Assembly: GCF_002252525.1 (NCBI RefSeq)
Contig: NZ_NNRM01000017.1
Location: 620,001-684,000 of the forward strand
Reading direction: 5' to 3'
Origin: Brucella pseudogrignonensis
Lineage (GTDB): Bacteria; Pseudomonadota; Alphaproteobacteria; Rhizobiales; Rhizobiaceae
Length of the DNA: 64,000 nt
Both the position numbers and the translations under genes were made by a program. This document shows positions 12,491 through 16,801 of this stretch, piece by piece (the first letter of the stretch is position 1; every line of letters starts with the position of its first letter). The notes under the pieces were generated by a model. The model did not search any database. It was not told where the DNA came from and saw nothing but the letters and a program-made list of their open reading frames with translations.

Positions 12491-13252
12491 ATGAGCGAAG
12501 CATCATTGGATAACCGCCCGCGTCTTGACCAGTTGCTGGTTGATCGCGGGTTGTTCGCTACGCGCTCGCGTGCGCGTGACGCAATTCAGCGCGGCACGGT
12601 GAAGGTTGACGGCAAGCCCGTCACCAAGCCGGGGCAAAATGTACTGCGTACAGCAGAGCTGAGCGTAGATGATCCCGCAAGCGCCTATGTTTCGCGTGGC
12701 GCGCTGAAACTCATCGCGGCACTTGATCATTTCAATCTCGATGTGAAGGGCGTGAGCGCGCTCGATATTGGCGCATCGACCGGCGGCTTTACACAAGTGC
12801 TTCTGGAGCGCGGCAGCAATCATGTCATCGCCATTGATGTGGGCCATGACCAGTTGCACGAGAGCCTCCGCAATGACCCGCGTGTCACCAACAAGGAGGG
12901 CGTTAATGCCCGTGCGCTGGATTTCAGCCACCTTGATGGCCGCGATATTGGCTGCGTTGTTTCGGATGTGAGCTTCATTTCCTTGAAACTCGCTTTGCCA
13001 CCGGCATTGGCCTTGGCGCAAAAAGATGCTATCTGCGCGCTTCTCGTAAAGCCGCAGTTTGAAGCCGGGCGTGAAGCCATCGGCAAAGGTGGCATTTTGC
13101 GTGACCCGAAAGACGGCGAACGCATTGCGGAAGAATTGAAATCATGGCTTGAGACGCAGCCCGGTTGGCGCGCGCTCGGCCTTTGCCCGTCACCCATTGA
13201 GGGCGGCGACGGCAATCGTGAATATCTCTTGGCAGGAAAGAAAGACCAATGA
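12491..13252 (+). CDS. tlyA: TlyA family rRNA (cytidine-2'-O)-methyltransferase
   Basis: A 253-residue RNA methyltransferase. An N-terminal S4 RNA-binding domain (RLDQLLVDRGLFATRSRARDAI) is joined to an FtsJ-like SAM-binding domain (ALDIGASTGGFTQVLLERG, motif I; DVSFISLKL, motif IV). TlyA proteins methylate cytidines in 16S and 23S rRNA. ATG at 12491 follows dxs by 3 bases; TTG at 12488 is an alternative. The end overlaps the next gene by 4 bases (ATGA). Confidence 0.93.
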   Translation: MSEASLDNRPRLDQLLVDRGLFATRSRARDAIQRGTVKVDGKPVTKPGQNVLRTAELSVDDPASAYVSRGALKLIAALDHFNLDVKGVSALDIGASTGGFTQVLLERGSNHVIAIDVGHDQLHESLRNDPRVTNKEGVNARALDFSHLDGRDIGCVVSDVSFISLKLALPPALALAQKDAICALLVKPQFEAGREAIGKGGILRDPKDGERIAEELKSWLETQPGWRALGLCPSPIEGGDGNREYLLAGKKDQ

Positions 13253-14478
13253 CGACCCAGGTAACAATCCGCTCGATGGGTGCGGGCGGCGATGGCGTCG
13301 CCAATCTTCCCGATGGTCAGCTTTTTGTGCCTTTCACACTGCCCGGCGAAGTGGCCAATGTGGCGCGCGACAAAAACCGCGCGACAGTGATGGCATTGCT
13401 TGAAACCTCCGCTGAGCGTCAGGACCCAGCCTGCCAGCATTTTGAAGATTGCGGCGGCTGCGCTTTGCAGCATTGGCAGGATGAGCCTTACCGCGCATGG
13501 AAGCGCGAACTGGTGGTCTCTGCCTTAAAGGGCAGGGGCCTTGAGGTTGAAGTCGATGAGCTGGTCGCTTGCCAGCCACAGTCGCGCCGCCGTGCAACCT
13601 TTGCTGCGCGCAAGACGGAAAAGGGCGTGCTGCTTGGCTTTAACCGACACCAGAGCCACGAGATCATCGATATTGTCGAATGCGCCGTCACAGTGCCGGA
13701 AATCATTTCGCGGCTTGATGACCTGCGCGAAGTGGGCGCGTTGATTGCACCCGGCTCCAAGCCGTTCAAACTGGCGGCAACCGTAACCGCATCGGGCCTT
13801 GATCTGGCGGCAAGCGGCTGCGGCAAACTCACCGACGAGCAGCGCCGCGCGCTCACCGCACTCATTATGAAGAAAGGCTTTGCCCGCCTTTCGCATGAAG
13901 GTGAAATCATCGTCGAGCCTAAAAAGCCAGTTATTCATATCGGCAATGTGCCAGTTCCGGTGCCTCCGGGTTGCTTCTTGCAGGCAACGGTCGATGCAGA
14001 AGAAGCGATGGTGTCGCTGGTTCAGGCACATCTTGGCAAGGCCAAGCGCGTTGCAGACCTCTTCTGTGGTGTGGGCACATTCGCGCTGCGTATTGCGGAA
14101 AAGTGCGCGGTCCACGCAATCGAAAACGATGCTCCGGCGCTGGCAGCGCTTGATCGCGGTATCCGCCATGTGCAGGGCCTAAAACCTGTCTCGGTTGAAC
14201 GCCGCGACCTCTTCCGCCGTCCGTTGATGCCAAAGGAACTGCTGCCTTACAATGCAGTGGTCTTCGATCCGCCGCGCGCGGGTGCAGAAGAACAGGCGCT
14301 GGAACTGGCTAAATCCAAGGTGGAGAAGGTTGTCGCGATCTCGTGCAACCCGGTGACGCTGGCGCGTGACCTCGCCATTCTGGTGAAGGGCGGCTACCGC
14401 ATCACCCGCGTCACACCGATTGACCAGTTCCTCTGGTCGCCACATGTCGAAGCCGTGGCGACACTGGTGAAGAGGTAG
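13249..14478 (+). CDS. TrmA/RlmD-type 23S rRNA or tRNA (uracil-5-)-methyltransferase
   Basis: A class I SAM RNA methyltransferase of 409 residues. An iron-sulfur cysteine cluster is visible early (CQHFEDCGGCALQHW), with the SAM motif VADLFCGVGTFALRIAE in the C-terminal half, FDPPRAGAEEQ, and the catalytic cysteine in AISCNPVTLARDL. The family methylates C5 of uridine in rRNA or tRNA; specificity is uncertain. ATGA overlap with tlyA indicates translational coupling. It is the last core gene before an AT-rich insertion. Confidence 0.92.
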   Translation: MTTQVTIRSMGAGGDGVANLPDGQLFVPFTLPGEVANVARDKNRATVMALLETSAERQDPACQHFEDCGGCALQHWQDEPYRAWKRELVVSALKGRGLEVEVDELVACQPQSRRRATFAARKTEKGVLLGFNRHQSHEIIDIVECAVTVPEIISRLDDLREVGALIAPGSKPFKLAATVTASGLDLAASGCGKLTDEQRRALTALIMKKGFARLSHEGEIIVEPKKPVIHIGNVPVPVPPGCFLQATVDAEEAMVSLVQAHLGKAKRVADLFCGVGTFALRIAEKCAVHAIENDAPALAALDRGIRHVQGLKPVSVERRDLFRRPLMPKELLPYNAVVFDPPRAGAEEQALELAKSKVEKVVAISCNPVTLARDLAILVKGGYRITRVTPIDQFLWSPHVEAVATLVKR

Positions 14479-14631
14479 TAATAGTTTTTATTTGAAGCTG
14501 AGGAACTTAGCCCCATTCACTCCGAGTATGAATTAGTTATATTTAATTTATCCATCATAAAATTGAGTTGCTTAGGGAATTGACTGGTATTTTTAGTGTA
14601 GCTATGGAGGATGGCTTAAACGGGGGGAATA
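14479..14631. other. AT-rich left flank of the GTPase cassette
   Basis: 153 bp of visibly AT-rich sequence between the core methyltransferase and the GTPase gene. No gene, tRNA remnant, integrase or clear direct repeat seen. It presumably holds the cassette's promoter; the ribosome site before the GTPase is the GGGGGG run at 14622-14627. Confidence 0.5.
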
Positions 14632-15450
14632 ATGGCAAAACGCAACTGGAAAGCTTGGCCTAAAGAATTCAAGTCAAAACTTGATGCCACTAATAGTATC
14701 ATTGGTATAAGTTCTGCAGGTATTGGCGGTGTAGGTCTTATAGTTTCCCAGCCCGTGGTGGCGGGGTTGGGGTTCGGTGCCGCGGTTTTAGTCGCTGCAT
14801 GGAGTGCTGTAACTTCATTCCCCGTGAAATTGATTTCTCCTGAGCATTATTTACATCAAAAAATTGATGATTTTTCTTTAATTGGAACGTTCGATCCGAA
14901 TTTAACGCTTGTAGGTTTTGTTGGTCCATCGCGGGCTGGTAAAACTACGCTTTTAAACTACATTAATTATGAGGTTGAATCTGTTCAAGAAAGAACTGAT
15001 GATATTTATTTTGTTGTCTCTTTGAATTCGGGAAATCCAAATTTATATTATGGTATATTGGACGGTGCGGGCCAGCAATACTATCAGCAGTTTCAGATCG
15101 TGGGAAAATCAGATATAGCTTACATTTTTTTAGATCATTCATCTGTACGAGATTCTATGAGTGTTGATTTTGATCGGCTAAAAGAGCACGAGGCTTTTTT
15201 GAATCAGTTAAGTGGTTATTTGCGTAAGGAGAAGAAGCAGCTGAAAAGCTTGCATTTTATTCTCAATAAAAAAGATTTGTGGGAAACATCACCACAAAGA
15301 GTAGATTTAGAGAGTTGGTTGGATAATCAAGTGGGGCGTTGGAAGGAGTTCTCTAATTTTCCTATAACTAAGTCTTATCATAGCAACTTTGTAACGGCGG
15401 ATAAATTGAAGCTAGAGAATGAGCTTCGAAATTTATTGATCAAGGGATAA
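14632..15450 (+). CDS. membrane-anchored Ras-like GTPase of unknown function
   Basis: Not a family I can name. Seen in its 272 residues: a hydrophobic hairpin at about 23-62 (two probable membrane segments), then a complete small-GTPase motif set: P-loop G98-PSRAGKT-T106, G3 motif D144-GAG-Q148 (DxxGQ, as in Ras/Arf GTPases), and G4 motif N212-KK-D215. The C-terminal region after about 220 is short and polar. The gene is AT-rich with TTT, TTA, AAT and ATA codons unlike its neighbours, which suggests horizontal origin. A second AT-rich gene follows after 4 bases. Role inferred only: GTP-controlled membrane switch, possibly in stress or phage defence. Confidence 0.8.
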   Translation: MAKRNWKAWPKEFKSKLDATNSIIGISSAGIGGVGLIVSQPVVAGLGFGAAVLVAAWSAVTSFPVKLISPEHYLHQKIDDFSLIGTFDPNLTLVGFVGPSRAGKTTLLNYINYEVESVQERTDDIYFVVSLNSGNPNLYYGILDGAGQQYYQQFQIVGKSDIAYIFLDHSSVRDSMSVDFDRLKEHEAFLNQLSGYLRKEKKQLKSLHFILNKKDLWETSPQRVDLESWLDNQVGRWKEFSNFPITKSYHSNFVTADKLKLENELRNLLIKG

Positions 15451-15454
15451 TTCT

Positions 15455-16024
15455 ATGATCGGGGAAAAAGACAGCGCTCTAATTATATATAACTCCCCCG
15501 TTTCCTTTGTTTTAATGGGGCCAGGGAGAGTTCATAGACGAGTACTCGCACGATCTGCGCATGAGAATTTGGATCTTATTGGCCTAGATAGTCGTTCTTC
15601 ATTTGTATTTTCTCGTTCTATTTCGACTAAAATCCGACGTATGTTTGGTTTTAATCGTGATCTGGATGCTTTGGTCGTTAGAACAAAAAGCGCCTTTATT
15701 GAAGCAGATGATGTGAAGGATGCTCGAAAGACACATTTGACATTTGCATGGCGTGGCCTCGCAAGTATATCTGACTTAGAAAGGTTGGAGGTCTTATTTG
15801 ATGAGACTGCTGGGGACATGGTTTCTGCGATGCAAAGCGAATCAGTGTCTGGCCTAGAGTGGCAGCTTTCTCAACTTATCCATAATTGCCGTTTTGCAAC
15901 GGAGAGAGTTAAAGACAGGCTTATATATTTAAGATCAGCATTTTTGTTCATCATATTTCTATATATGATGACTTTTATTTACCTTTTTGATAGCTCATTT
16001 TTCAAGTCGGGAGGTGGTTTCTAA
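15455..16024 (+). CDS. unknown tail-anchored membrane protein, partner of the GTPase
   Basis: A 189-residue protein with no family I recognise. Residues 1-150 look soluble, mixed alpha/beta with several basic stretches (RVHRRVLARS, SRSISTKIRRMF); residues about 161-179 form one hydrophobic segment (AFLFIIFLYMMTFIYLF) with a short Ser/Gly-rich end, so it is probably C-terminally anchored. AAGGG at 15442-15446 gives a good ribosome site. It starts 4 bases after the GTPase stop, shares its AT-rich composition and overlaps the converging racemase gene by 30 bases. The two genes look like one transferred cassette. Confidence 0.75.
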   Translation: MIGEKDSALIIYNSPVSFVLMGPGRVHRRVLARSAHENLDLIGLDSRSSFVFSRSISTKIRRMFGFNRDLDALVVRTKSAFIEADDVKDARKTHLTFAWRGLASISDLERLEVLFDETAGDMVSAMQSESVSGLEWQLSQLIHNCRFATERVKDRLIYLRSAFLFIIFLYMMTFIYLFDSSFFKSGGGF

Positions 16025-16780
16025 CGTTTTGCCGTCGGGGGCGAATGAGTATTTTACTTTAGAACGGTTTTTATTGGATCGATGCTCGGGCCTTAACGCC
16101 CAGTCTACCGCCGCTTCGGCATGTAACCGTGTCGTGTCAAACACTGGCACGGGGCTGTCTTCTTGGCCGATAAGCAGCATGATTTCGGTGCAGCCGAGGA
16201 TGATGGCCTCTGCACCGCGCTCGACGAGGCGTTGGATCACCGCGCGGTATTTTTCGCGTGAGGCATCTCGCACTTGGCCAACAACCAGTTCCTGATAGAT
16301 GATGTCATGCACGGTTTTGCGGTCGGCATCGTCGGGCGTCAAAACTTCAAGCCCATGCCTGGAGGCGAGGCGGCCTTTGTAGAAATCCTGCTCCATCGTG
16401 AAAGCGGTGCCGAGAAGGCCTACTTTGGAGAGGCCTTGGGCTTTTATCTTTTCTGCAGTCGGGTCTGCAATGTGCACAAGCGGGATCGACGTGGTGCGTT
16501 CAATGTCAGCGGCCATTTTATGCATGGTGTTGGTGCAGATGAGGATGAAATCTGCGCCGCCTTTTTCAAGGTTTTGCGCGGCTTCAATCATCAGCTTGGT
16601 CAGTTCGTCCCATTTGCCCTGATGCTGGAGATGCTCGATTTCAGCAAAATCCATCGACCACATCAGGCTTTTGGCCGAATGCGTGCCACCAAGCCTTGCA
16701 CGGATTTCCTGATTGATGATGCGATAATATTCCTGCGAGCTTTCCCAGCTCATCCCGCCAATCAATCCAATCGTTTTCAT
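15995..16780 (-). CDS. aspartate/glutamate racemase family protein
   Basis: A cofactor-independent Asp/Glu/hydantoin racemase of 261 residues. Both catalytic cysteines are in their usual settings: ICTNTMHKMA and LGCTEIMLLI; the N terminus IGLIGGMSWESSQEYY is typical of YgeA-type broad-specificity racemases. The domain seems to finish at about AAVDWAL; the last 30 or so residues are a Lys/Arg/Ser-rich extension whose end is encoded inside the AT-rich cassette. ATG at 16780 follows GGGAGG; TTG at 16783 is less likely. Confidence 0.9.
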   Translation of the reverse strand: MKTIGLIGGMSWESSQEYYRIINQEIRARLGGTHSAKSLMWSMDFAEIEHLQHQGKWDELTKLMIEAAQNLEKGGADFILICTNTMHKMAADIERTTSIPLVHIADPTAEKIKAQGLSKVGLLGTAFTMEQDFYKGRLASRHGLEVLTPDDADRKTVHDIIYQELVVGQVRDASREKYRAVIQRLVERGAEAIILGCTEIMLLIGQEDSPVPVFDTTRLHAEAAVDWALRPEHRSNKNRSKVKYSFAPDGKTLETTSRLEK

Positions 16781-16801
16781 CAAGCCCTCCCAGATATAAT
16801 G

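Follow-up and report, generated by a model that had tools for sequence, protein, structure and literature searches.

A two-gene pair encoding a predicted membrane GTPase and a small partner at a variable site of Brucella pseudogrignonensis and in mobile loci of other bacteria: a possible defence module

The DO-GTPases have a downstream partner, and about 13% of them possess N-terminal membrane segments, according to the parts of Kaur et al. 2020 (PMC7159879) used here. The same parts describe these systems as nearly absent from cyanobacteria and report a conserved Glu in Walker B, whose position is not specified there. Small GTPases with roadblock partners function in polarity and signalling, as stated in excerpts of two papers (PMC10933270, PMC4316618), and the survey of prokaryotic small GTPases in the latter excluded proteins of more than 240 aa. 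Furthermore, the excerpted text of PMC10933270 regards the roadblock/longin families as archaeal in origin and reports that in the Asgard strain MK-D1 the small GTPase genes are not generally in operons with roadblock/longin genes. In this study, a stretch of 64,000 nt from Brucella pseudogrignonensis (NZ_NNRM01000017.1, positions 620,001 to 684,000), referred to as the window, was analyzed for a two-gene pair whose first gene encodes a small GTPase carrying a predicted membrane hairpin and whose second gene encodes a small partner, beta-rich in a low-confidence model. The pair is conserved and closely coupled. It is rare, spread over several phyla, and found in variable or mobile loci.

The two open reading frames (ORFs) of the pair are separated by 4 bases, and a purine-rich stretch, a possible ribosome-binding site, lies 5' of each. 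The G+C content of the pair was 39.2%, while the minimum among 5982 overlapping, equally long stretches elsewhere in the window was 49.0%. Therefore, chance does not account for the AT-rich composition of the pair. Compared with genomes lacking the insert, the homology on the left stopped at about 14478, the methyltransferase stop, and resumed on the right at about 16092-16106. The AT-rich insert (14479..16091, no strand) thus extends from this stop to the 3' end of the racemase gene, as judged from the flanks in 15 other genus genomes and from the G+C content (39% for the pair versus 54%). The AT-rich two-gene block between a methyltransferase and a racemase described in the initial annotation was borne out, and its view of a foreign cassette of two coupled genes was supported by the composition, the empty-site comparison, and the ORF spacing.

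The first gene (14632..15450, + strand) encodes a protein of 272 aa, in which overlapping hydrophobic segments at residues ~20-69, predicted from hydropathy, are followed by a Ras/Arf/Rag-like G domain. The G1/P-loop GPSRAGKT (14923..14946, + strand), the G3 motif DGAGQ (15061..15075, + strand), and the G4 motif NKKDLW (15265..15282, + strand) were all present behind the hairpin, as first annotated. Together with the G-domain fold, these motifs identify a GTPase of the Ras/Arf/Rag type. The P-loop and NKxDxW were conserved in 7/7 of the GTPases compared. The G3-terminal Gln occurred only in the window protein, and the third place of G3 was A in the window protein, E only in the Saprospiraceae member, and D in the others. 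The best structural match of the GTPase model was LokiRagO, with Gtr chains close to it. When the GTPase profile was compared with the Protein Data Bank (PDB) sequences, many GTPases were matched, the best being Der (2.3e-6), followed by G-alpha-13 and, at about 1e-3, guanylate-binding proteins; therefore, a particular likeness to Rag or Arf cannot be read from the sequence alone. The window GTPase was below the Pfam and NCBIfam cut-offs in all families scanned and had no convincing match in PADLOC (mad8, E 7e-4 over residues 92-169; mad3, 0.017; DndE, 0.034).

The second gene (15455..16024, + strand) encodes a partner of 189 aa with a beta-rich N-terminal domain, helices, and one predicted hydrophobic segment near the C-terminus (residues ~154-184). 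The hydrophobic segments in both proteins support, as a prediction, the membrane location that had been proposed for both products. Across the family, the partner length ranged from 167 to 191 aa. The C-terminal membrane segment was found in three of the five distinct partners, those of the window, Acinetobacter, and the prophage, but was absent from the Okeania (L018 3245-3751) and Saprospiraceae (L027 6157-6660) partners; tail anchoring, as originally suggested, therefore holds for a part of the family. For the low-confidence partner model, longin-type chains were numerous in the list of structural matches, which also contained two SRP-receptor entries. Thus, the structure-based search gave a Ras/Arf/Rag-like fold for the GTPase and a weak longin-like match for the partner. 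Among 395 rows at E <= 10 in a Foldseek search of the partner against a viral library, none reached E <= 0.001, and one V-SNARE-named row had E 0.75. The partner profile matched PDB sequences only at E 0.72 and 0.9. The window partner was below the Pfam and NCBIfam cut-offs, with no Pfam match at E <= 10 and no PADLOC match, and its four homologues had no Pfam match at E <= 1. A Pfam roadblock match was also absent for all five partners, next to which stands the low-confidence fold model. These scans assigned the partner to no family, and since neither protein reached a Pfam or NCBIfam cut-off, the searches did not reveal a known housekeeping pair.

In each of the seven loci where the partner gene is intact, which represent five distinct lineages, it follows the GTPase gene, and the spacing between the two genes was +4, -17, -4, -26, -26, -26, and -8 bases. 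In 7/7 loci the G+C content of the pair was below that of its surroundings. In leave-one-out profiles, the GTPases scored 163-195 bits versus at most 24.4 for Era, and the partners scored 52-71 bits, except for the Saprospiraceae partner with 10.5; shuffled sequences gave at most 8.9.

The GTPase was found in 1/35 genus, 1/297 family, 1/397 order, 1/385 class, and 1/398 phylum genomes, these sets overlapping and the single match being the window's own in each. A second match in the class (G1100) was interrupted by stops, was read as Era, and was dropped. The partner profile likewise matched 1/289 phylum genomes, the window's own. Using tblastn, the Acinetobacter pair was found in a phage collection, which was searched with the GTPase but not with the partner as a query; both GTPase matches there were Acinetobacter contigs. 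These contigs bear the name 'Acinetobacter phage MD-2021a'; from the annotated neighbours, the DNA around the pair looks chromosomal. A degenerate pattern around G4 yielded one prophage member (1/5 viral stretches true) and five of 32 genome stretches: three Okeania, one Saprospiraceae, and one Acidipila, all from metagenome-assembled genomes, whose bins may hold misplaced contigs. One further genome row of this pattern (L038, E 0.05) was dropped, and L004 was rejected as a chance match. Because the pattern can detect a member only if H..xLNKxD-W is conserved, the sample behind the rarity and pairing counts is biased. No relative was seen among 5, 418, and 431 stretches in the early viral scans or among 209 stretches in the first genome-contig scan, and the later viral scans gave nothing beyond the prophage contig. 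On plasmids, tblastn gave no match for the window GTPase, the window partner, the Acinetobacter GTPase, or the prophage GTPase, and the best match in PHROGs was only at E 0.011.

Several of these relatives were located next to mobile elements. On the prophage contig, the pair had the contig end on one side and a gene for a large serine recombinase on the other; genes for a cytosine methylase, an S24 repressor, and a CII-type regulator lay farther from the end. A phage-type integrase gene was located ~3.6 kb upstream of the Saprospiraceae pair, the interval containing a helix-turn-helix gene, and the Acidipila remnant was ~0.5 kb from an integrase fragment. In Okeania L018, the pair was followed by ~1 kb with one small ORF and then by the PADLOC candidates PDC-M28B (1.6e-64) and PDC-M28C (4.6e-78). 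No PDC-M28-like ORFs stood out in the DNA covered around the Okeania pairs of L025 and L040, the latter with 253 bases downstream only. A 218-base direct repeat, which starts with a terminator-like hairpin, occurred on both sides of the Acinetobacter pair and once more downstream (L002 7179-7396, 9131-9348, 10311-10528). PADLOC gave nothing at E <= 0.01 for five homologous pair proteins, and no convincing PADLOC model match of a known anti-phage system was obtained for the pair.

The same site was then compared in the genus. A DNA match to the racemase flank was obtained in 18 of the 35 genus genomes, the comparison being confined to these; 16 were usable, including the window's own, and the remaining two were matches of 24 and 30 bases. 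The pair was absent from the site in 15/15 of the other usable genomes, consistent with the genus count of the GTPase, so the two genes are not a constant feature of this locus in the relatives. Three genomes had a cleanly empty site, the flank matches being 11, 12, and 18 bases apart (L050, L054, and L048, respectively). In L060 the distance was 65 bases, and the greater part of the racemase match was missing as well. In six genomes (L049, L051, L052, L053, L057, and L058), two genes of ordinary composition, SRPBCC- and ArsR-like by eye, occupied the site. Three others (L047, 627-1457; L056; L059) carried a protein of 274-276 aa, membrane-bound by eye, which had no Pfam or PADLOC match in L047. 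L055 (640-1482) carried an AT-rich gene for a 280-aa protein on the opposite strand, also with no Pfam or PADLOC match. In the nearest genome, L046, whose flanks were 96-97% identical, the site held an AT-rich DUF2971 gene (450-1463) matching PADLOC PDC-S31 (1.1e-31); a literature search found no paper connecting DUF2971 with defence. Because the same site was empty or differently filled across these 15 genomes, it is a variable site carrying alternative cargo.

The insert is flanked on the left by a tRNA/rRNA uracil-5 methyltransferase gene (13249..14478, + strand; PF05958, 4e-15) and on the right by an Asp/Glu racemase gene (15995..16783, - strand; PF01177, 9.4e-47). In comparison with relatives, the usual stop of the racemase gene was lost at the insertion, and its ORF continues for ~30 codons within the insert as a C-terminal extension. 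The racemase and partner genes overlap tail to tail by 30 bases (15995-16024). No direct repeats of at least 14 bases bounded the insert, and the promoter- and terminator-like matches were no better than the chance level.

Taken as a whole, we give a probability of about one half to the reading that the pair is a mobile two-gene membrane switch, in which a conserved GTPase/partner complex at the inner membrane blocks phage infection. The two proteins would assemble at the inner membrane, and the partner would regulate, or be driven by, the GTPase, perhaps via a longin/roadblock-like domain, analogous to the action of MglB on MglA or of longin proteins on Rag/Rab. A phage cue would shift the nucleotide state of the GTPase, and the complex would then block infection at the membrane by superinfection exclusion or abortive shutdown. 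From the variation in G3, and by analogy with Rup group 1, GTP hydrolysis may depend on a partner; such dependence was proposed for that group, which lacks the G3 Gln, in the part of PMC4316618 used here. Phage defence or superinfection exclusion is favoured over housekeeping because the pair is carried by a prophage and a hotspot, and bacteria may have in this pair a defence module not described before. The link to defence, first suggested from the sequence features, is one of context, namely the two PADLOC candidates that lie ~1 kb from an Okeania pair, the PADLOC candidate that occupies this site in the nearest genome, the prophage, and the integrase element; the genes are paired in every copy with an intact partner, but defence candidates are found only near some of them. 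The fuller version, an immune or superinfection-exclusion module in which a Rag/Arf-like GTPase anchored in the membrane works with a longin-type partner that in some lineages has a membrane anchor too, the module being spread on prophages and integrative elements across bacterial phyla, is put forward tentatively and is rather doubtful. Should the pair act in phage defence, it would be a further small-GTPase module, one without a convincing model in PADLOC 2.0.0.

A switch for membrane stress, trafficking, or signalling, of the MglA/MglB or conservon type and without a role in phage defence, is possible though not probable. The Ras/Rag/Arf-like fold and the above-mentioned roles of roadblock-partnered GTPases agree with it, but the pair is rare and lies in variable or mobile loci, and its partner has no roadblock match.

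That the DO-GTPase conflict systems include the pair as a minimal branch, with the partner in place of GAP1, is unlikely. The prophage GTPase exceeded the cut-off of DO-GTPase2 (PF19993; 30.7 versus 27 bits), so a distant tie of the family to the DO-GTPases is possible. The remaining four distinct members matched this model below the cut-off; a downstream partner and occasional N-terminal membrane segments are also features of that group. On the other side, the window protein scored 20.2 bits, and in 5/5 leave-one-out profiles Era (16-24 bits) was preferred to the four DO-GTPases of L065 and L066 (at most 10.9), a comparison based on one Era and two genomes. Moreover, no second GTPase, GASH-like, or GAP1-like gene was seen beside the pair when the layout was read by eye, unlike in L065/L066. 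Pfam, which presumably includes GAP1 models, gave no sign of a downstream GAP1 in the above-mentioned scans of the five partners. Given the sub-threshold Pfam score of the window protein, the higher profile scores of Era, and a gene arrangement unlike that of the two clear systems in L065 and L066, the pair is not a standard DO-GTPase/GAP1 system.

A pair of the toxin-antitoxin or addiction type, maintained by mobile elements, in which one product harms the membrane and the GTPase restrains it, is still less probable. Two coupled small AT-rich genes, some on mobile elements, and the single membrane segment in 3/5 partners would suit it, but the G-domain motifs are conserved, and no named toxin family was matched in the four libraries scanned. 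A neutral decaying insert is highly improbable. Two copies would fit it: the Acinetobacter GTPase, whose frame is interrupted by a stop after the hairpin part and before the G domain (L002 7929-8552 and upstream), and the Acidipila copy, apparently broken by a frame change and a run of undetermined bases. Motif conservation largely refutes this reading, as the intact window, prophage, Okeania, and Saprospiraceae copies share the G motifs at ~30% identity.

Among open-licence PMC papers, screened by titles and abstract starts, none describing this pair was found. The PADLOC candidates PDC-S31 and PDC-M28 are different proteins, with no similarity to the pair reported, and resemble it in place only. 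With the DO-GTPase/GAP1 systems, the pair shares a TRAFAC-type GTPase, a downstream partner, mobile neighbourhoods, some N-terminal membrane segments, and a weak Pfam similarity; it differs in its single GTPase, in its small partner lacking a Pfam match, in showing no second GTPase or GASH/FNIII-like gene, and in its occurrence in three Okeania, whereas those systems are nearly absent from cyanobacteria. Like MglA/MglB and the Rup small GTPases, as far as the excerpted part of PMC4316618 describes them, it has a Ras-like GTPase with conserved neighbours, and Rup group 1 also resembles the members other than the window protein in lacking the G3 Gln; the membrane hairpin, the partner without a roadblock match, and the mobile context set it apart. 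Compared with Rag/Gtr and their longin/roadblock regulators and with the SRP receptor, the pair is bacterial, without sequence similarity found and with a weak partner match. Its likeness to Rag/Gtr lies in the best matches of the GTPase model and the longin-type chains of the partner list. SR-beta pairs with the SR-alpha N-terminal domain, and the two SRP-receptor entries in that list are the point of likeness here. If the partner is truly a longin domain, the pair would be a GTPase-longin operon on bacterial mobile elements, a kind of pairing used around membranes by eukaryotes and Asgard archaea.
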